Shown: positions 3,767 to 63,901, numbered from the stretch's first letter. The stretch: 64,000 bases of DNA from Halorutilus salinus (GCF_026242195.1 NZ_RKLV01000005.1:62001-126000); one strand, 5' to 3'. The notes: a model not told the origin generated them from the sequence alone. Made by a program: numbers and translations.

Positions 3767-4576
3767 ATGCCGACGCGCCGTTCGTTTCTCGCCGGCTCCG
3801 CTGGTGTTCTCACGGGCTGTCTCGGCGACGACGGCGACAACGAGACGAACGAGAGCGACGACGAAGGCGAAGCCGACTTCGCCGTAACCACCTCCAAGAA
3901 CACGGTCGAACCCCCGCGTGACACCGTTGAGGTCACTCTGACGAACGAAGGCGACGGTTACGGCGGCTACAACCCCTACTGGAGTATCTACAGACGTATC
4001 GGCGACGGGTGGCGTTTTGTAGCACCCGTCAAACGAACCCTCAGAGCACCCTTCCTATCCGCCGGTTCTGAGGAGACACGGACGTTCACGGTCGACAACA
4101 CCGACCACGAAGCCCGCGGACAGAACGAAGAAGGCGGCTGGACGTTCTGGGGACTCAACCCCGGACGTTACGCCGTCGAACCCGCCAACGGGATGTACGC
4201 CGAGTTCGATGTCGAGGGCGAACCGCCTGATTTCTCAGATACCACCGTCTCGTACGGCATCAGGAACGAGGACGCCCAAACCGTAATCTACGCCGAGGAG
4301 GAGCTACGCGATCCGGAACCGTCGATCCGCGTTACGCGAACAGACGCCGACGGCGTGAACCTCGTAGAGGAACAGCTAAACCAGCTTGGTGCCGTCCGCG
4401 ACGCCGTGCTACACGCCAACGGCGAGGCGGTCGTCTACACCGACGACGCGGCGACGGTATACGCCTACCTGCAACGGTACGCGTCCGAGCGCTCGTACGA
4501 GACCGAGGACGAAGAACCCGTCGTCTTCAGGTACGAAGGTGAAAGCTACCGTGTCGAGTGGCTTGACACGGATTAA
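3767..4576 (+). CDS. Tat-exported lipoprotein, paralogue of the 8.8-13.8 kb family
   Basis: The 269-residue protein begins with a twin-arginine signal (TRRSFL) and lipobox LTGC, followed by an acidic Asn/Asp/Glu-rich linker, so it should be anchored outside the membrane. An Ig-like beta domain (about residues 35-155) includes TFTVDNTD and WGLNPG-Y. A C-terminal module (about 200-269) has EEQLNQLG-VRDAV and ends in YEGESYRVEW. The same two-part design occurs in the proteins at 11191 and 13058. The ATG at 3767 is chosen because it begins directly at the signal peptide; the upstream extension has no meaningful sequence. Function unknown. Confidence 0.85.
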   Translation: MPTRRSFLAGSAGVLTGCLGDDGDNETNESDDEGEADFAVTTSKNTVEPPRDTVEVTLTNEGDGYGGYNPYWSIYRRIGDGWRFVAPVKRTLRAPFLSAGSEETRTFTVDNTDHEARGQNEEGGWTFWGLNPGRYAVEPANGMYAEFDVEGEPPDFSDTTVSYGIRNEDAQTVIYAEEELRDPEPSIRVTRTDADGVNLVEEQLNQLGAVRDAVLHANGEAVVYTDDAATVYAYLQRYASERSYETEDEEPVVFRYEGESYRVEWLDTD

Positions 4577-6566: not shown

Positions 6567-7316
6567 TCACACAGCCTTGCGCCGAACCTTCGTTGCGCCC
6601 CGGCGGTACTTACTGAAGACCTCGTCTCCCTTATCACGTACCGGAACGCGGTCGGATACGACACCGCCCAGTACCCCTCCTTCGCCATCGTAGGATATCA
6701 CACAGACACCCGTGTCGGAGACGAGAAGACCGTACGGCACCGTACGTTCGGTGACGTAGACGGAAACGCCGTTCTCCAACTGATCCTCAAGCATCTTAGG
6801 GTACCGTCTCCGAACGTGCTCAAAGACATCCTTCTCCAAGACGAACTCCGCATCCATACCTTCGACAGCCTTCCGCCGAGCGAAACGGACGTACCTCTCG
6901 GTGACGACGGGCGCGAGTCCCCGAACCGTTTCCGACGCGTTAACCATATCCTCCATACGCGACACGGGCTTCTGGGGTGCGTGCGGTTCGGGTAGGACGG
7001 TATCGGCGTCCGAAACCATGTCGAGGTCGAAGTCGTCACCGAGTCCTTCGAGAACCGGACGCGCCTTGCACACACGTGACATCTCCTCGTGCTTTTGATA
7101 CACTTCCTTTCCGTACGCCGTCAGGTCGTAGCCTCCGCCCCCGTTAGTTATCAGACCCACGTCCTCCAGTTCACGTAGTGACTTGTACACCGTCGAGTCA
7201 GCCATCTCGGTCTCACGCCGCAGGTCGGACGCGTCGTATTCTCGCTCGTGTATACGTTTGAGAACGTCGGCGCGTTTGGACAGGACATCGTGCAGTTCGG
7301 CGGTACCGTGGGACAT
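6567..7316 (-). CDS. HTH transcription regulator with FilR1-type domain
   Basis: The 249-residue protein has an N-terminal winged helix-turn-helix (about 8-75; DASDLRRETEMADSTVYKSL gives the recognition helix). A C-terminal domain of the FilR1/DUF1724 type follows (about 95-240), with ENGVSVYVTE and P-Y-G-L-L-V-S-D. This architecture is common in archaeal regulators, and its ligand is generally unknown. A TATA element (ACTTAAGA on the minus strand, 7339-7346) lies 27 bases upstream of the ATG, indicating a leaderless message. It is divergent from the protease-lipoprotein operon and from a repeat array, so it is the first candidate to control them. Confidence 0.8.
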   Translation of the reverse strand: MSHGTAELHDVLSKRADVLKRIHEREYDASDLRRETEMADSTVYKSLRELEDVGLITNGGGGYDLTAYGKEVYQKHEEMSRVCKARPVLEGLGDDFDLDMVSDADTVLPEPHAPQKPVSRMEDMVNASETVRGLAPVVTERYVRFARRKAVEGMDAEFVLEKDVFEHVRRRYPKMLEDQLENGVSVYVTERTVPYGLLVSDTGVCVISYDGEGGVLGGVVSDRVPVRDKGDEVFSKYRRGATKVRRKAV

Positions 7317-7389
7317 ACGCGCGTATACCGTTCCGTATCTTAAGTCCTTTTTGCCGGGTACCGGACGGCTGACCTGACGTTACATGCTC

Positions 7390-7490
7390 CGTGTAACTTT
7401 CACGGTTCGTGTAATTTCTACGGTTCGTATAAATTTCACAGTCCGTACAAATTCCATGTTTCATGCAAATTTTGCGCCGTGTAATATAAG
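7390..7490. repeat. Array of about six 18-bp repeats (operator-like)
   Basis: The core CGTGTAA or a close variant recurs at 7390, 7408, 7426, 7444, 7462 and 7478. The period is exactly 18 bases for five copies and 16 for the last. Better copies are imperfect palindromes of the form CGTGTAA-N-TTTCACG with 3-base spacers. Copies decay towards the downstream side, and the last one merges into the TATA-like TAATATAA at 7482-7489. Because 18 is a multiple of three, the array reads as a spurious repetitive peptide in one frame. This is best read as multiple binding sites for a regulator. Confidence 0.7.
7482..7489 (+). promoter_or_regulatory. TATA element of the protease-lipoprotein operon
   Basis: TAATATAA is centred about 30 bases before the ATG at 7516, which suggests a leaderless transcript. 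It overlaps the sixth copy of the upstream repeat, so a protein bound there would compete with TBP. Confidence 0.55.
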
Positions 7491-7515: not shown

Positions 7516-8820
7516 ATGGCACGAGACAAGACGCGCGACCTGCGTAAGATGGGGCGTAGAAACTTCTTGAAGACCCTTGCTGGAATCGGAGTCTCGGCTG
7601 GTTCGCTGAGATATCTTTCAAAAGAGGCACTTGCAGAAGTAACTGACAAACCGGAGGACGTGGTGCCAGTCCTACAGTTTATGAAGAAACCGGATAATGA
7701 GGAAGAACGAAGGAAAAACAAGGGCATTGAGGATTTCGCTGGTAGAATACCTGTATATGAAGCCGTTCCCCGCGACAGATGGATGAAAATAGAAGCTATA
7801 CATAACGCCGCTCGTAAATTGAATAACAGACTTTCGTCAATCAGCGAACCATCTCCCGAAGTTGGTGTGACAATGAGGACGAACGGGCATAACAAAGAGA
7901 GGATTCTGGAAGTTAAACATGTAACCTACACATGTGACTGCGGCGAGGGGGTTATACAAACTCCTGGGGTTAGCTATGATAGCCTGACCGATAAAATACC
8001 GGCGAGCGTCTCAGGTACACACGGGAAAGGGAATTATGAACGAGTAGTAGAGGACATACCTGTAGTGGTGAAGGAAGTTACTGCTGAGTTGCAGAACTAT
8101 TATACGAATAAATACAGACCTGTTCCCGGCGGTTGCAAAATGATAGGTTCTAAGATGGAAAGCAGTTACTGTGATGCCACCATCGGGTTCCCCGCGGAAC
8201 AAGGTTATAACCAGCCAGTCTGGGTTACTGCCGCTCATAACGTCTCCGTTGATATGCCAGAGTATACAACCTGTAAAGACGAGCAATTTTATGGTGATGA
8301 TGTATATCAACCAGATGAATCTAACAGTGGCATTATTGGAGGTGCTCAAGAGGATGATCTATGGTGGTTTGCAACAAACCACGGGCCAGATAAATGGGGA
8401 GACGTGGCAGTACTAAGAAATATCATGGGAAATGATGCGGAATTTGATATGGCGAGTGACTCTACCGGACAGGATTACATGGGATGGGAATTAAAAGGTA
8501 CTTCATCTGTGGATCGTCTCAAAGATAAGATGAGTTCTCTTGATATAACGGTACAAGGAATTACAACCGGTAGACAGACCGGCTCCATTTACGGCCTTGA
8601 CAATAACGATTATCAAATACAACTATCTGATGTAGATACGGAGGGTGGGGACTCTGGAGGACCGTACTTTGAACTGGAACCAGATGAGCTTGGCAACAAC
8701 GAAGTACTTGCCGTAGGTATACACTCCGGTAGTAATAGATACTCTCCGGCTGACACTTTCGGCAGTATATTTAAGCGGGTTGAAAATAACTTTGGTATAG
8801 CAGTCGGTGCCTCATGGTAG
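7516..8820 (+). CDS. Tat-exported trypsin-like serine protease
   Basis: The 434-residue protein has a Tat signal (GRRNFLKTLAGIGVSAG, residues 13-29). A long N-terminal part (40-215) contains Cys pairs such as CDC at 140-142. The C-terminal half is chymotrypsin-like: AAHN with His 241, GDVAV with Asp 296 and GGDSGGPY with Ser 380, a complete catalytic triad. It has no lipobox and should be released or held by partners. Codon use differs sharply from the flanks (many ATA, AGA, GAT, AAT; visibly lower GC), which points to recent transfer. The ATG at 7516 is chosen as the one directly before the signal; the upstream part is the repeat array. Its stop overlaps the next start. Confidence 0.85.
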   Translation: MARDKTRDLRKMGRRNFLKTLAGIGVSAGSLRYLSKEALAEVTDKPEDVVPVLQFMKKPDNEEERRKNKGIEDFAGRIPVYEAVPRDRWMKIEAIHNAARKLNNRLSSISEPSPEVGVTMRTNGHNKERILEVKHVTYTCDCGEGVIQTPGVSYDSLTDKIPASVSGTHGKGNYERVVEDIPVVVKEVTAELQNYYTNKYRPVPGGCKMIGSKMESSYCDATIGFPAEQGYNQPVWVTAAHNVSVDMPEYTTCKDEQFYGDDVYQPDESNSGIIGGAQEDDLWWFATNHGPDKWGDVAVLRNIMGNDAEFDMASDSTGQDYMGWELKGTSSVDRLKDKMSSLDITVQGITTGRQTGSIYGLDNNDYQIQLSDVDTEGGDSGGPYFELEPDELGNNEVLAVGIHSGSNRYSPADTFGSIFKRVENNFGIAVGASW

Positions 8821-10343
8821 AAAGGTGTAACAGACGGAAGTTTTCGGCACTGGTTCTTTTAGGCTTAACCGGATGTCTCGAAAATACAGGCGAGCACAAT
8901 GACGGAGAGGGTTTTAACCAAACAGGTACTGATGGAGAAATCAGAGTGAGTTCGTCCGTCGACAGTCTAACCCTTCCACAGGCGGAGTTTGAGCTACGGA
9001 TATCAAACCGGACGGACAACGAAATCTCGCTTGGCTTCCCGACAGCTTGGAAGGTGATTGACGGCGAATACTTCTATTTACAGCCCATAAGACCGGCACA
9101 CCTGTTTCCTCATCTCGGTGTCCGCCTCGGACCGAACGGCACGGAGTCATTCAACCTCACCGTTGGTAATGAGTCGGAGACCATGGAACCGTATCTTCCG
9201 GGAGCGGGACCGGGAAAATACCTGTTTAGTGTCACCGAGGGTGTTTACGAACCCGATGAGGTAATCGATGAAATGAAGACGACTGAACTCAGGTTCGTGG
9301 GTGACGCGCCGGATCACACCCCCGTCTCCGTCGAAGAGACGAGTAACGAGGACGGCATACTACGTCTCAGGATGCAGACTAACCGCGGGTCGGAAGATGA
9401 CACGGGTCGTGTTTCCATCTCTACCGGTGAAGACGTACGCCGTGAAGCACCCAACGACACACCGGAACTGATACGCGAGCAGGTCTTCCAGTTTGGTGTC
9501 GTCCGTAACGCTGTCTACTACCTTGGTGTTCAGGAAGAAACGCATGAACTGATAGCTGAAGGTAGCTTGGTTTCTCAAGAACGCCGCGTTCTCGACGAGG
9601 TACGCCGTGAAGACAGGTACCCGTACTTCTCGTCGAACGACGACAGTCTATACTTTGGCTACGACGGTGACATCTATCGTATTGAACTGTATTCGGAGGT
9701 TAACGCTACGGAAACCACAGTTTCACGGGGCGAGGTAAACGTCATAAACGAGGAGTTCCACGTTAGTTCGCCCCACGGACAAGGCTCCCCTGACCCCATC
9801 AGTATCGTGAACGACGGCGACGAAACGGTACGTTGCACGGTTGAGGTATTGGAGGACGGCGAACCGGTCTACACTCTCCGTATCGAACTGGGACCTTACG
9901 GTACCTACACAGACGGTCTGAGGATAGCGCGTGAAGGGGTATACGATGTCCGTGTAGAAACTGAGGGCGGCACGGTTGACGGTAGATGGCATGTAGGGGA
10001 TGGATATACGGGGTTCGTGGTAGAGCCGGACGAGCCGAGGGTTTCGCAGGTGAAGAGGCGGGGAACCGTAGAGGTACGGACGCCCGACACGGTTCCCAAA
10101 GGTGATCCGGTTCCCGCAGAGGATATCTCGGAGTACGGAGCCGTCTACGAGGCTATCGAACAGCACCACGGTTGTGAGACGGGTGACTCGGACGATGGGT
10201 GCGAAACCGTCCGTACGGTAGCCGGTGAGGACTGGGTGGTTGCGACACGTGCCTCTGAGGAGTATACGAGCGAAGATGGGTCAGGGGTATACGTCGAATA
10301 CCGTGGGAATGTTTACGTCTTCACAGTCGAAACAGAGGTGTGA
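8814..10343 (+). CDS. Two-module Tat lipoprotein in protease operon
   Basis: The 509-residue protein starts with NRRKF and lipobox LTGC (Cys 21), so it is exported and lipid-anchored. The N-terminal half resembles the family at 3767/11191/13058: an Ig-like part with WKV, FNLTVGN and GPGKY, then IREQVFQFGVVRNAV and YDGDIYRIEL. The C-terminal half (from about residue 305) resembles the whole mature protein at 10351 (VINEEFHV, EDISEYGAVYEAIE, VEYRGNVYVF). It is therefore a fusion of two related units. Its ATG lies inside the protease stop region (7-base overlap), which implies translational coupling. GC content is intermediate between the protease and later genes. Function unknown. Confidence 0.8.
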   Translation: MVERCNRRKFSALVLLGLTGCLENTGEHNDGEGFNQTGTDGEIRVSSSVDSLTLPQAEFELRISNRTDNEISLGFPTAWKVIDGEYFYLQPIRPAHLFPHLGVRLGPNGTESFNLTVGNESETMEPYLPGAGPGKYLFSVTEGVYEPDEVIDEMKTTELRFVGDAPDHTPVSVEETSNEDGILRLRMQTNRGSEDDTGRVSISTGEDVRREAPNDTPELIREQVFQFGVVRNAVYYLGVQEETHELIAEGSLVSQERRVLDEVRREDRYPYFSSNDDSLYFGYDGDIYRIELYSEVNATETTVSRGEVNVINEEFHVSSPHGQGSPDPISIVNDGDETVRCTVEVLEDGEPVYTLRIELGPYGTYTDGLRIAREGVYDVRVETEGGTVDGRWHVGDGYTGFVVEPDEPRVSQVKRRGTVEVRTPDTVPKGDPVPAEDISEYGAVYEAIEQHHGCETGDSDDGCETVRTVAGEDWVVATRASEEYTSEDGSGVYVEYRGNVYVFTVETEV

Positions 10344-10350
10344 ATTTATC

Positions 10351-11187
10351 ATGAACCGCCGAGGTTTTGTTGCTACGGTTGCGGTGGTTATGTCAGGATG
10401 TGTTAGTAACGGAAGCAACACCACGCCCGGTGACGACGAAACCGACATCAACCAAACCGATACAGGAAACCGAACCGACACCCCTCTCAACAAGTCGGAG
10501 TACGGTGGCGAGGTAGCGGAAGGAACACGTGTTCTTAATGAGGAAATAAACGTCGACACTCCTTACGGAAATGACTACCCCCCAGAGGCAGTTCGAATTA
10601 TTAGCACGGCAGAAGAGGAGGTGACGGCGACGGTCAGGCTACTGGAGGGAGAAGACGTCATATACTCCGCAACCCTTGTTCAAGAACCCTCTACAGGAGG
10701 GTACAGGTATCCGGAGCTTATCGGCAAAACAGGAGGGTTAGTAGCCGAAGTAGAGAGGAACGGCGAGGTACAAGAACTCGAATGTAAGACGGGACCCGGA
10801 TTTACCATCATCGCTATTGATGTCGACGATGTGGACGGATGCACGGCACCCAGACATGCGAACATAGCCATCTATCACGTCACGGAGAAACCCGACGATG
10901 TCGAACTCGTCTCCTCCGAGGAGCTGTCTGAGTATGACACCGTCGATTCATTCGTTGAGTCGTACAGGTACTGCGACGACAACCCCGATGAGAAGGAGGC
11001 ATGCGTGACCGAGGACGGCGAAGTTGACTTCTTCCGCGGCGGCGTTTCGGGAAGACGGTACGCCGAGTTTGACCGTATAATCGAAAAGTTTCCTAGCTAC
11101 AGGTCGGATGACGACGAGTACCCAACGGGGGCGTACATTGAACACGAAGGTGAGATTTACGTCTTCCACATGACCATGGAGTTTTGA
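10351..11187 (+). CDS. Lipoprotein related to C-terminal half of the preceding gene
   Basis: The 278-residue protein has a signal with NRRGF and lipobox MSGC, then a Thr/Asn/Asp-rich linker. A beta domain follows (RVLNEEINVDTP, TVRLLEGEDVIYSATL) and then a C-terminal module with ELSEYDTVDSFVES and IEHEGEIYVF. The last two segments match the second half of the 8814 protein closely enough to call them paralogues. Four Cys residues in the mature part (near CKTGPGF, GCTAPR, YRYCDDN and EACVTED) may form disulfides. The ATG at 10351 begins directly at the signal and is 7 bases after the previous stop. Function unknown. Confidence 0.78.
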   Translation: MNRRGFVATVAVVMSGCVSNGSNTTPGDDETDINQTDTGNRTDTPLNKSEYGGEVAEGTRVLNEEINVDTPYGNDYPPEAVRIISTAEEEVTATVRLLEGEDVIYSATLVQEPSTGGYRYPELIGKTGGLVAEVERNGEVQELECKTGPGFTIIAIDVDDVDGCTAPRHANIAIYHVTEKPDDVELVSSEELSEYDTVDSFVESYRYCDDNPDEKEACVTEDGEVDFFRGGVSGRRYAEFDRIIEKFPSYRSDDDEYPTGAYIEHEGEIYVFHMTMEF

Positions 11188-11190
11188 GAT

Positions 11191-11988
11191 ATGCGGACGC
11201 GCCGTTCGTTCCTCGCCGTCTCCGCCGCCTCTCTCACGGGCTGTCTCGGCGGCGACGGCGGTAAGGAGACGAACGAGAGCGACGAAGACGAACCCGAGTA
11301 CGCGGTGACCACATCCAAGAACACGCTTGAACCCCCGCGCGACAGCCTTGAAGTCGTGGTCGAAAACAGGGAGGAGTCGGAAATCACGATCCCTCCATCT
11401 ATTGAGGTCTACAAAGACACAGACGAGGGGAAGTACCTGGTCACGCCTTACATAGGACGGATCGAAAAGTTCCAAGAAAGACTGGGCGGTCCCGTATTGG
11501 AGCCGAACGGCGAACATAGCTGGACATTCGTGGTCGACAACACCGACCCCGACTCGCGGGGTCGAGAGCGGTACAAGCACACCCTTTGGGGTCTAAACCC
11601 CGGAACGTACACGGCGAAGGTGGGGTACGGCGTCTCGGAGTTCAAAATCGAAGGCGACCCGGTTGACCGGGACAAGATATCCTACGAGATTAAGCAGGAA
11701 GATGGGGTTACGGAGGTCTACTACGAGGAACACAGCCTCGAAGACGAGGTACCGGCTGTACGTCTCACACCGACGGACGAAGAGGGTCGTACGGTGATAG
11801 AAGAACAGCTAAACCAGCTTGGTGGGCTACGCGACGCGGTTCTGTACGCCGACGGGGGTGAGGCTGTCGTATACACCGACGAAGAGTCCTTGGTCGGACA
11901 GCTCAGGGTTCTTACCGACATATACCCTACCGAGGGGGCTGTGATAGAGTACGAAAACGAAACGTACCGTGCCCGGTATGTCGAATAG
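11191..11988 (+). CDS. Tat lipoprotein, Ig-like plus C-terminal module
   Basis: The 265-residue protein opens with RTRRSFL and lipobox LTGC. The mature part has an acidic linker, YAVTTSKNTLEPPRDSLEVVVEN, then TFVVDNTD and LWGLNPGTY of the Ig-like domain. The C-terminal module has EEQLNQLGGLRDAV and ends in YENETYRARY. It is a clear paralogue of the proteins at 3767 and 13058. It starts 3 bases after the previous stop and ends directly before the next start, so it sits in the middle of the operon. Function unknown. Confidence 0.82.
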   Translation: MRTRRSFLAVSAASLTGCLGGDGGKETNESDEDEPEYAVTTSKNTLEPPRDSLEVVVENREESEITIPPSIEVYKDTDEGKYLVTPYIGRIEKFQERLGGPVLEPNGEHSWTFVVDNTDPDSRGRERYKHTLWGLNPGTYTAKVGYGVSEFKIEGDPVDRDKISYEIKQEDGVTEVYYEEHSLEDEVPAVRLTPTDEEGRTVIEEQLNQLGGLRDAVLYADGGEAVVYTDEESLVGQLRVLTDIYPTEGAVIEYENETYRARYVE

Positions 11989-13068
11989 ATGGATACAAGC
12001 TATCCGTTCCTCGCGTCCGTCTCGCGTCTGACCGTAGCCGTTGTCTTCGTCTACCTCGCTACCTTAGGAGTCGTCGCACAGCCCGTGAACGTCTCCGACA
12101 CGGGCGATCTGCGTAACGTCTCCGACGATCTTGACGGTAGCTACGTTCTCGTGGAAGACATCGACCTCTCAGACGTATCCTTCGAACCTATCGGGGACGC
12201 AGACAGGAGCTTCATAGGACGGTTCGACGGAAACGGACACGTCGTGACCAACCTTTCCGTCTCAGAGGAGGGATACGCGGGTCTGTTCGGTGCCGTCGGA
12301 GAGAACGGAACCGTCGAGAACGTGGGTGTTGAGAACGCGAACGTCTCCGGCACGGGGGCGGGCGGTCTCGTGGGATTCAACGCCGGGACGGTCGTTCGGT
12401 CGTACGTCACGGGGAACGTCACGGGTGACGAACCCGTCGGTGGGCTGGTCGGCGTCCACCGGGGCGTCGTCGCGCGGTCGTACTCGACCGCCGACGTGAC
12501 CGGAAACCGCACCGTCGGCGGCTTGGTTGGTATGGCGCACGCCGAACCGACGGGTATAGTACCGGGGACGCGTCCCGATATCGAGTACGCCGTCGTTGAG
12601 TCGTACGCCGCCGGCTATGTGGATGGCGACAAACGCGTCGGAGGCGTCTTCGGACTCGTGAGCCTCGCGCCCACGGATCCGCGCTCCGTCAACGACTCGG
12701 TGTACTGGGATGTCGAAGCCACGGGACACGAAGACGCCGTCGGTGCCTTCGGTACTCGGTCGAACGCGACGCCTGCGACGGGTCTTACCACGTCGGAGAT
12801 GACGGGCGTTGCCGCACGCGAGAGTATGTCAGGATTCGGTTTCGGCGATACGTGGGTGGTAAACGACGGATACCCCGAACTCGCCCGACGCGACCAACCG
12901 TCGTCCGTCACGATAGACCGACCCGAACGCGTACCCCAAGACGCCGAAGAAGACGGTAACGTCTCCGACGACGGAGACGACGAAGCCGAGGAGACGCCCG
13001 GCTTTACGTTCGTCGTGACTCTTGTAGCCTTCGCCGCGGTCGCGTGGGGGTGGTCGTATGAGACGTAG
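11989..13068 (+). CDS. GLUG-repeat surface protein with PGF-CTERM-like tail
   Basis: The 359-residue protein has a Sec-type signal peptide (1-31) and about four repeats of the GLUG type (GGLVG with following V-x-x-S-Y-x-x-x-x-V-T-G). These fold as right-handed beta-solenoid turns and occur in surface and adhesin-like proteins. Near the end an Asp/Glu-rich stretch is followed by TPGF and a hydrophobic segment, like a PGF-CTERM signal for archaeosortase. The usual terminal Arg cluster is missing. It overlaps the next gene by 11 bases. It should be displayed at the cell surface with the operon's lipoproteins. Confidence 0.78.
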   Translation: MDTSYPFLASVSRLTVAVVFVYLATLGVVAQPVNVSDTGDLRNVSDDLDGSYVLVEDIDLSDVSFEPIGDADRSFIGRFDGNGHVVTNLSVSEEGYAGLFGAVGENGTVENVGVENANVSGTGAGGLVGFNAGTVVRSYVTGNVTGDEPVGGLVGVHRGVVARSYSTADVTGNRTVGGLVGMAHAEPTGIVPGTRPDIEYAVVESYAAGYVDGDKRVGGVFGLVSLAPTDPRSVNDSVYWDVEATGHEDAVGAFGTRSNATPATGLTTSEMTGVAARESMSGFGFGDTWVVNDGYPELARRDQPSSVTIDRPERVPQDAEEDGNVSDDGDDEAEETPGFTFVVTLVAFAAVAWGWSYET

Positions 13069-13846
13069 GGTATTCCTCGTCTCGTCCGCCGGCGCGCTCA
13101 CGGGATGTCTCGGCGGTTCAGGCGAAAACGAGACGAACGGGACGAACACGACCGACGAAGACGAACCCCGGTACGCTGTAACCATATCCAAGGAGAGGCT
13201 CGAACTGCCGCGTGACAGCCTCGAGGTCACGACGGAGAACACGGGCGACGGTGGCGGCGGCTTCGGACCCCATCTACGTACGTACAAGATAGTCGACGGG
13301 GAGAGGTATATCATAGCACCTCGTACCAGTACCCTTGACGCCGTCCTTCTGGAACCCGGCGACGAGTTCTCGCTGAGCTTCACCGTCGACAACACAGACC
13401 GCGAACACGGCTACGCGGGACGCGGCGACCAGACCCTCTGGGGACTCAACCCCGGAACGTACGTCACTGAACTCGGTGATACCGCCGAGTTCGAAATCAT
13501 CGGCGAACCGTTCGACGCAGGTACGGTATCGCACGAAGTGAGGAGAGAAGACGGTGTCCTCAACGTCTACGCGGATATGGAGAGCCTTGACGACAACCAA
13601 CCCGCCGTCCGTCTAACGCCGACCGACGCCGACGGTCACAGACTCATCGAGGAACAAATAAACCAGTTCGACGCTCTGAGGGATGCTGTTATACACGCAG
13701 AAGGGAACGCGGCTAATATCTACACCGACCACCCACCGAGTAGCCGTCTGCGGTTCTACACGGGGAAGGATCTCGACGACGGTCCCGTCATTATCGAGTA
13801 CGACGACGAAAGCTACCGCGTCGAGATAGCCGACGACACCCCGTAA
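13058..13846 (+). CDS. Tat lipoprotein, last gene of the protease operon
   Basis: The 262-residue protein has RRRVFL and lipobox LTGC, then YAVTISKERLELPRDSLEVTTEN, SFTVDNTD and LWGLNPGTY of the Ig-like domain. The C-terminal module has EEQINQFDALRDAV and ends in YDDESYRVEI. It is a paralogue of the 3767 and 11191 proteins. It overlaps the GLUG gene by 11 bases, so it is almost certainly cotranslated with it. Base composition matches the rest of the chromosome, unlike the protease at the head of the operon. Function unknown. Confidence 0.82.
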   Translation: MRRRVFLVSSAGALTGCLGGSGENETNGTNTTDEDEPRYAVTISKERLELPRDSLEVTTENTGDGGGGFGPHLRTYKIVDGERYIIAPRTSTLDAVLLEPGDEFSLSFTVDNTDREHGYAGRGDQTLWGLNPGTYVTELGDTAEFEIIGEPFDAGTVSHEVRREDGVLNVYADMESLDDNQPAVRLTPTDADGHRLIEEQINQFDALRDAVIHAEGNAANIYTDHPPSSRLRFYTGKDLDDGPVIIEYDDESYRVEIADDTP

Positions 13847-63238: not shown

Positions 63239-63901
63239 CTATACACCGGTACGCGGGTCGTTCTCCTCAGGTATCTCCGCGCCCGCAAGGCTTTCGGCGC
63301 TTGCTAAGTTCTCCTTCTCCGTCTCGACGCCCGAAAGATCCGCGCCGTCCAAGGTAGCACCCCTGAGGTTTGCTACGAGGACGGCGTCGGTCAGGTCGAC
63401 GTCGGAGAGATCCGCGCCGGACAGGTCTGCGGCGTACAGGTTCGCTCCCGAAACGTCGGCGCGCCGTAGATCCGCCTCCGAGAGGTTCGCGCCGTACAGA
63501 ACGGCGTCGTTGAGCGACGCGTTCCTGAGGTCAGCCCCCGAAACGTCGGCGTATCTTAACGTTGCCTCCGACAGATCGGCGTCTGTGAGACACGCACCGG
63601 ACATGTCTGCGACATACCCTTCGTCCTCGGCTGTCATATCCGCGCCCGAAAGGTTCGCGCCGGTCAGGTCTGCGTCGGCGAACCTCGCAGACGCCTCCGA
63701 ACCGGACAGGTCGGCGTTGTAAAGCTCCGCCTCTGTGAACTCAGCGCCTCTAAGATCTGCGTGGCTAAGATCGGCGCGCCGGAGGTTAGCCCTCTTCAGG
63801 TTAGCCTCGGACAGGTCAGCGCCGCTCAGGCTCTCGCCCGCGAGGTCGGCGTCGACCATCACCTCACCGTTCAGATTCCTGTCGTTTTTTTCTTCATCCA
63901 T
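63239..63901 (-). CDS. Pentapeptide-repeat protein
   Basis: The 220-residue protein is almost entirely A-(D/N)-L-x-x repeats from about residue 15 to 207 (SGADLSEANLKRANLRRADLSHADL and so on), roughly 38 units. This folds as a four-sided right-handed beta-helix. A short insert (TAEDEGYVADMSGACL, about 94-109) breaks the regular pattern. There is no signal peptide. Some family members mimic DNA and protect gyrase (Qnr); for most the role is unknown. The protein is acidic. Confidence 0.9.
   Translation of the reverse strand: MDEEKNDRNLNGEVMVDADLAGESLSGADLSEANLKRANLRRADLSHADLRGAEFTEAELYNADLSGSEASARFADADLTGANLSGADMTAEDEGYVADMSGACLTDADLSEATLRYADVSGADLRNASLNDAVLYGANLSEADLRRADVSGANLYAADLSGADLSDVDLTDAVLVANLRGATLDGADLSGVETEKENLASAESLAGAEIPEENDPRTGV

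Follow-up and report, generated by a model that had tools for sequence, protein, structure and literature searches.

An exported serine protease and its exchangeable lipoprotein neighbours in Halorutilus salinus: a candidate protease-restraint cassette of Halobacteria

Introduction

What would an exported protease do at the head of a row of lipoprotein genes? The question is raised by a six-gene locus of Halorutilus salinus, located at positions 7516-13846 of a 64,000-nucleotide stretch of its genome (GCF_026242195.1 NZ_RKLV01000005.1:62001-126000; this whole stretch is hereafter called the window). Six consecutive open reading frames (ORFs), all on the + strand, are found there, and their make-up was confirmed as a serine protease exported by the twin-arginine translocation (Tat) route, four Tat lipoproteins and a GLUG/PGF-CTERM-like surface protein. 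A first-pass annotation of the window knew of no described archaeal system of this kind, and none was found in the open-access PubMed Central (PMC) literature, in which no description of a protease paired with a swappable lipoprotein was found either. Most archaeal lipoproteins have no known function (PMC8416519), and several unannotated lipoprotein families gain here a specific and testable partner, namely the exported protease.

Judging from the linkage, co-inheritance and AT-richness of the genes, the locus is most likely an enlarged member of a haloarchaeal accessory cassette composed of an exported protease and at least one lipid-anchored partner. As for what the lipoproteins do, we favour, at a probability of about 0.45, a membrane-tethered restraint of the producer's own exported protease, or self-protection against it, at the producer's surface.

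A streptogrisin-like protease with an N-terminal domain

Gene 1 (7516-8820, + strand) codes for a 434-residue Tat-exported serine protease of the S1 family and PA clan. The first-pass reading of a Tat protease holds, as the N-terminus bears the Tat motif MGRRNFL, the Pfam Trypsin score lies over the cut-off (E 8e-5) and the catalytic triad H241/D296/S380 is intact. In an alignment of 33 full-length relatives, H241 and GDS(380)G are invariant and D296 is present in at least 90%. The signal peptide (residues ~1-45) is followed by an N-terminal domain (NTD, residues ~48-196, bases ~7657-8103) and by the protease domain (residues ~205-434, bases ~8128-8817). Full-length relatives retain one protease domain through the C-terminus, with no exchangeable C-terminal toxin cassettes.

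When the protease profile was compared with the Protein Data Bank (PDB), the best match was the mature enzyme of streptogrisin B (E 2e-8). Because this mature enzyme aligns from profile position 205 onward, the NTD occupies the place of a pro-region. Streptogrisins and alpha-lytic proteases form a group that we take to be MEROPS S1E, and the pro-region of streptogrisin-type proteases folds and inhibits its enzyme. The present protease resembles this group in its mature-domain sequence, GDSGGP motif, NTD in the pro-region place and export; unlike these enzymes, it uses the Tat and not the Sec route, is linked to lipoprotein genes and has an NTD that matches no PDB sequence and also occurs as free lipoproteins.

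The AlphaFold2 (AF2) model is confident for the NTD (predicted local distance difference test score, pLDDT, mostly 80-95) and weaker for the protease domain, parts of which are of low confidence. With this model, and hence with a partly low-confidence protease domain, Foldseek placed rice NARROW LEAF 1 (NAL1) first and the streptogrisins next; trypsins also matched, and a chymotrypsin-like double beta-barrel is the candidate fold of this domain. NAL1 is similar in overall length, in having an N-terminal region before a trypsin-like domain and in fold (E ~1e-8), but the TM-score is only ~0.44 and this plant protein has no lipoprotein partner. The Pfam scan of the protease detected neither a PDZ domain, the mark of HtrA/Deg proteases, nor a subtilisin-type (S8) domain, the mark of halolysins, the only type found being that of trypsin.

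Linkage to lipoproteins of changing class

In the compared loci, where genes were called with a simple ORF caller, a strict rule identifies the gene directly downstream of a full-length protease as a lipoprotein in 25/43 cases, versus 24/446 (5.4%) of the genes further away (P ~4e-21; Fisher 3e-17). A manual count, which admits weaker lipoboxes as well as upstream or convergent partners within ~0.9 kb, gives a lipoprotein neighbour at 37/42 non-duplicate loci. Among these 37 partners, 24 lie downstream on the same strand, seven are convergent, four are divergent and two lie upstream on the same strand. Against the 25/43 of the strict rule, NTD-less S1 proteases of this group reach only 3/16 (Fisher P 0.009). 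The first-pass annotation had made its proposal depend on the six families being found together elsewhere: the protease-lipoprotein linkage is indeed recurrent, but the six families are not conserved as a set. The conserved unit is the protease with at least one lipoprotein, the class of which is swapped; neither the six-gene version nor the GLUG gene was encountered outside the lineage of the window, and the regulator described below and the expansion are likewise lineage-specific.

Among the partners we distinguished, manually from the sequences and from hhalign comparisons, about six classes with unrelated domains: a small alpha/beta domain, two immunoglobulin (Ig)-like classes related to the LipA and LipB modules of the window, a beta class (c7), a beta-propeller and the protease's own NTD. 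Along the protease tree, a quick tree with several long branches, partner class requires 19 changes versus a mean of 25.7 after shuffling, and 0/200 shuffles gave a value as low. Related proteases tend to share a partner class, and the class was exchanged repeatedly between lineages. In 41/41 loci, the protease gene is AT-richer than the sequence around it (49.0 versus 62.3% guanine-plus-cytosine, GC), and the same is true of partner genes in 34/36, in contrast with the other lipoproteins of the same loci. Since protease and partner are both AT-rich, they appear to bear the signature of a portable accessory pair.

Lipoproteins and surface protein of the window

The junctions between the six ORFs, from gene 1 to gene 6, measure -7, +7, +3, 0 and -11 bases; the spacing of 0-7 bases initially given is thus correct for the first four, whereas the overlap between genes 5 and 6 amounts to 11 bases. 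Genes 2, 3, 4 and 6 all start with RRxF..[LM][ST]GC, a Tat-type lipobox, and are tied together by BLASTP, in agreement with the original description of four Tat lipoproteins with shared domains. Gene 2 (8814-10343, + strand, 509 residues) is a fusion, the N half of which is a LipA module that matches genes 4 and 6 (E 4e-11), and the C half (bases ~9711-10340) a LipB module that matches gene 3 (E 1e-12). Gene 3 (10351-11187, + strand) is of the LipB type, i.e., an Ig-like domain and a small alpha/beta domain. Genes 4 (11191-11988, + strand) and 6 (13058-13846, + strand) are of the LipA type, with an Ig/fibronectin type III (FnIII)-like domain followed by a C-terminal alpha/beta domain, and share 47% identity across their full length; the AF2 model of gene 6 displays both domains at a pLDDT of 78. 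A whole-genome search also found a solitary LipA paralogue, 52% identical to gene 6, 3 kb upstream (3767-4576, + strand).

None of the window lipoproteins scored over the cut-off for any named Pfam family, and PDB profile searches with the partner modules returned nothing usable. Comparisons by hhalign connect them with protease-linked lipoproteins of other families, the LipA Ig domain with the c9 lipoproteins (E 1e-9), the LipB C domain with small lipoproteins (E 5e-8) and the LipB N domain with the small Ig class of partners (E 6e-6). In other loci (L126, L128 and L129), lipoproteins of ~500 residues or longer are apparent fusions of c7-like and LipA domains, which join two partner classes. 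A PADLOC defence match on gene 4 (PprPDDEXK, 27 residues) was taken as chance.

Gene 5 (11989-13068, + strand) encodes the Sec-exported surface protein with GLUG repeats and a PGF-CTERM-like tail. Both features named in the first-pass annotation are evident by eye, but both score slightly below the curated cut-offs: two stretches reach 18.3 bits against Pfam Glug (cut-off 20.5), and the tail reaches 19.6 bits against PGF-CTERM (cut-off 24.5). The genome encodes the matching archaeosortase ArtA (E 7e-85).

The protease gene has a GC content of 46% (42% at third codon positions, GC3), versus 60% for the window, and GC climbs along the operon to reach host-like values in genes 4-6. The gradient hints at a protease of foreign origin that gathered duplicates of local lipoproteins.

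A proposed restraint of the protease at the cell surface

The most suggestive partner is the NTD itself. With a protease-only profile, free Tat lipoproteins carrying the NTD were detected; four of them adjoin proteases (E 4e-16 to 2e-10), and the others are solitary. Comparison by hhalign relates protease NTDs to these free lipoproteins with an E of 2e-26. The four adjoining ones place a pro-region-like domain on a lipid anchor next to the enzyme, an arrangement suggestive of a tethered restraint, which may extend to the other partner classes. Among the roles first listed for the locus, protease restraint by the lipoproteins appears the best. Solitary NTD lipoproteins with no protease nearby occur in several haloarchaeal genera and often carry a QQ-like tail (L089, L090, L091, L094, L095, L097, L099, L100 and L101).

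From protease family, triad, export signals, gene linkage, modular and co-inherited partners and the AT-rich composition of the cassette, we infer a course of events in which binding, restraint, self-protection, target and regulation are all conjectural. The protease would leave the cell folded, through the Tat route, as a zymogen whose NTD would sit in the inhibitory pro-region place of streptogrisin-type proteases. The lipoproteins would be exported as well, be anchored on the outer face of the producer's own membrane and bind the protease there, keeping it inactive or off the producer's own surface proteins. Protease activity would thereby be pointed outward, toward food protein, debris or neighbours, and the divergent regulator, together with an array of 18-bp period, would switch the gene set. 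If the partners do restrain the protease, the cassette would be a specialized system for protease control or self-protection at the archaeal cell surface, portable across Halobacteria, and the swapping of partners would allow the specificity between protease and partner to be tested directly.

Several observations weigh against such a restraint. No lipoprotein neighbour was found at 5/42 full-length loci, and 11/37 partners lie on the opposite strand, so that there is no co-transcription in those genomes. A beta-propeller, which makes up one partner class, is no obvious inhibitor, and LipA and LipB of the window match no known inhibitor family; nor is their being remote homologues of the NTD supported (hhalign probability <1%). 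Finally, LipA and the small alpha/beta modules may be general binding modules, because haloarchaeal lipoproteins often carry them with no protease nearby, which also led to the rejection of the idea that they are specific to the protease. An identity as BsuPI-type inhibitor was considered and set aside: a single partner, in another genome, gave a match, of 17.9 bits and hence below the cut-off of 22.9, and none of the window lipoproteins gave one.

A more combative version of the same arrangement, in which a mobile exported protease would attack the surface proteins of neighbours and an exchangeable lipid-anchored immunity protein would shield the producer, is in our view rather unlikely. Within it, and with the same doubt, the array of a related metagenome-assembled genome (G009), with two proteases and ~9 lipoprotein ORFs, would be an immunity array, and the solitary NTD lipoproteins would be orphan immunity genes. 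A precedent is the Tox-JAB-1 peptidase toxin of polymorphic toxin systems, which has the lipoprotein immunity Imm65 (PMC3482391). Common to both are an exported peptidase-type effector, a dedicated lipobox-anchored neighbour and arrays of partner genes; here, however, the serine protease is conserved to its end, variable C-terminal toxin cassettes are absent and no toxicity is known. The dedicated neighbour is present by the strict rule and in its tree-following class, and immunity is a candidate role for it. Should this conflict be real, the haloarchaeal system behind it would be of a class not described before, and it would add a new type of weapon to the few known in archaea. Accessory archaeal islands with exported Ig-domain proteins and variable gene sets are also known as the VARTIG modules of Thermococcales, which are led by a large hypervariable Ig protein, arCOG07710 (PMC8416519). 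In contrast, the first gene here is a protease, and families and host group differ.

The lipoproteins might instead be docking or substrate-capture adaptors that, without inhibiting the protease, hold it at the surface to scavenge protein or to process surface proteins of the cell itself. Only the partners, and not the protease, carry a membrane anchor, the partner folds (Ig-like, beta-propeller, LTD-like) are typical of binding modules, and a further surface ligand might be provided by the GLUG protein. Yet repeated replacement by unrelated folds and several lipoproteins per protease exceed the needs of an anchor, and the NTD-type partner, a copy of the pro-region, points to control instead, which makes pure anchoring unlikely.

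It is improbable that the protease cuts the neighbouring lipoproteins so that their outer domains, once freed, act as signals or as antimicrobial fragments. Antagonism between protease and precursor does exist in haloarchaea, where halolysin HlyR4 cuts the secreted precursor HFX_0892 of Haloferax mediterranei (PMC12893001), also a case of an exported serine protease acting on another exported protein, and the acidic linkers that follow the lipoboxes of the window lipoproteins could be cut. HlyR4, however, is a subtilase, its partner is a released precursor of a different strain, the two genes reside in separate genomes and the main text of that study does not contain the word "lipoprotein" (PMC12893001). 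Moreover, no cleavage motif shared by the partner classes was noticed, and folded Ig-like domains make poor peptide precursors.

Mere coincidence, by which exported AT-rich genes would collect in variable surface-protein islands and stand adjacent with no joint action, would fit the wide occurrence of LipA and small modules away from proteases and the ordinariness of Tat lipoproteins in haloarchaea, 78-87% of whose lipoproteins use Tat (PMC2945643), but is likewise improbable given an association far above both the background and the NTD-less S1 proteases, specific to the adjacent gene, tracking the protease tree and involving an NTD common to protease and partner.

Regulator and promoter region

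A FilR1-type winged-helix regulator (6567-7316, - strand; Pfam FilR1_middle 1.3e-25, HVO_A0261_N 2e-13) is divergent from the protease gene. In 4/4 compared loci of the window protease's family (the window, contig C15 of the same genome, G009 and another genome, G037), a relative of it immediately precedes the protease start, and relatives also occur at two other S1 proteases, versus a background of 6/742 genes; the whole genome has only 7 FilR1-type genes over the cut-off. The regulator, which the first-pass annotation omitted, belongs to the set in the window protease's family. In other haloarchaeal genera, FilR1-type regulators are also divergent from NTD-less S1 proteases (L116 and L117).

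Between regulator and protease lies an operator-like array of 18-bp period (7377-7484; lag-18 identity 0.62), the core of which (7388-7453, 3.7 copies) is the sole tandem array that Tandem Repeats Finder (TRF) reported in the window. Inspection of the sequence places a TATA-like element, TAATATAA (7482-7489, + strand), 34 bases 5' of the protease ATG, with a short leader or none predicted. The dedicated promoter first proposed is thus predicted from this element and the array. The G037 and C15 loci have closely similar, palindrome-rich promoter regions, and their palindromic arrays hold the same place as the array of the window but differ from it. A second, weak periodic stretch (lag identity ~0.6) was noticed near the end of the window (63379-63900).

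Relatives of the locus

The same genome carries two degraded copies of the locus. On contig C15, the regulator and a protease broken off after ~65 residues (G000:C15:58986-59186, L074) are found with a GLUG gene, while on contig C10 a C-terminal remnant of the protease (G000:C10:33403-33654, L075) precedes two LipB genes. These decayed loci have kept different partners and provide, for GLUG as for LipB, a second instance of linkage to the protease. In G009, the order is regulator, protease, LipA, lipoprotein, protease, LipA and further lipoprotein ORFs (L040, G009:C33, 6056-15851). Some of these lipoprotein ORFs are apparently broken, which suggests rapid duplication and decay. The G037 locus consists of regulator, protease and two small lipoproteins.

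Beyond these relatives, the protease family is patchy across Halobacteria. A single-protein search found relatives in 29/295 Halobacteriales genomes, and a 33-sequence profile matched in 165/394 genomes, many of the matches being the protease domain alone or the NTD alone. The full NTD-protease architecture was seen in Halobacteria only, other members of the phylum having the protease domain alone. A viral or phage origin was discarded, as no relatives of the protease were found in IMG/VR or phage records; four plasmid records contain it. A split NTD/protease pair of Haloferax larsenii was not used, its protease ORF having neither a signal peptide nor an NTD upstream in the three same-strand frames, and looking decayed. 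Natrialba hulunbeirensis is a culturable host with an intact protease-lipoprotein pair, as is Halocatena salina, which has its pair (WP_247995197/WP_247995198) on a plasmid. The copy of Halocatena salina is annotated as an "S1 family peptidase" followed by a "hypothetical protein," the latter being recognized here as a small lipoprotein.

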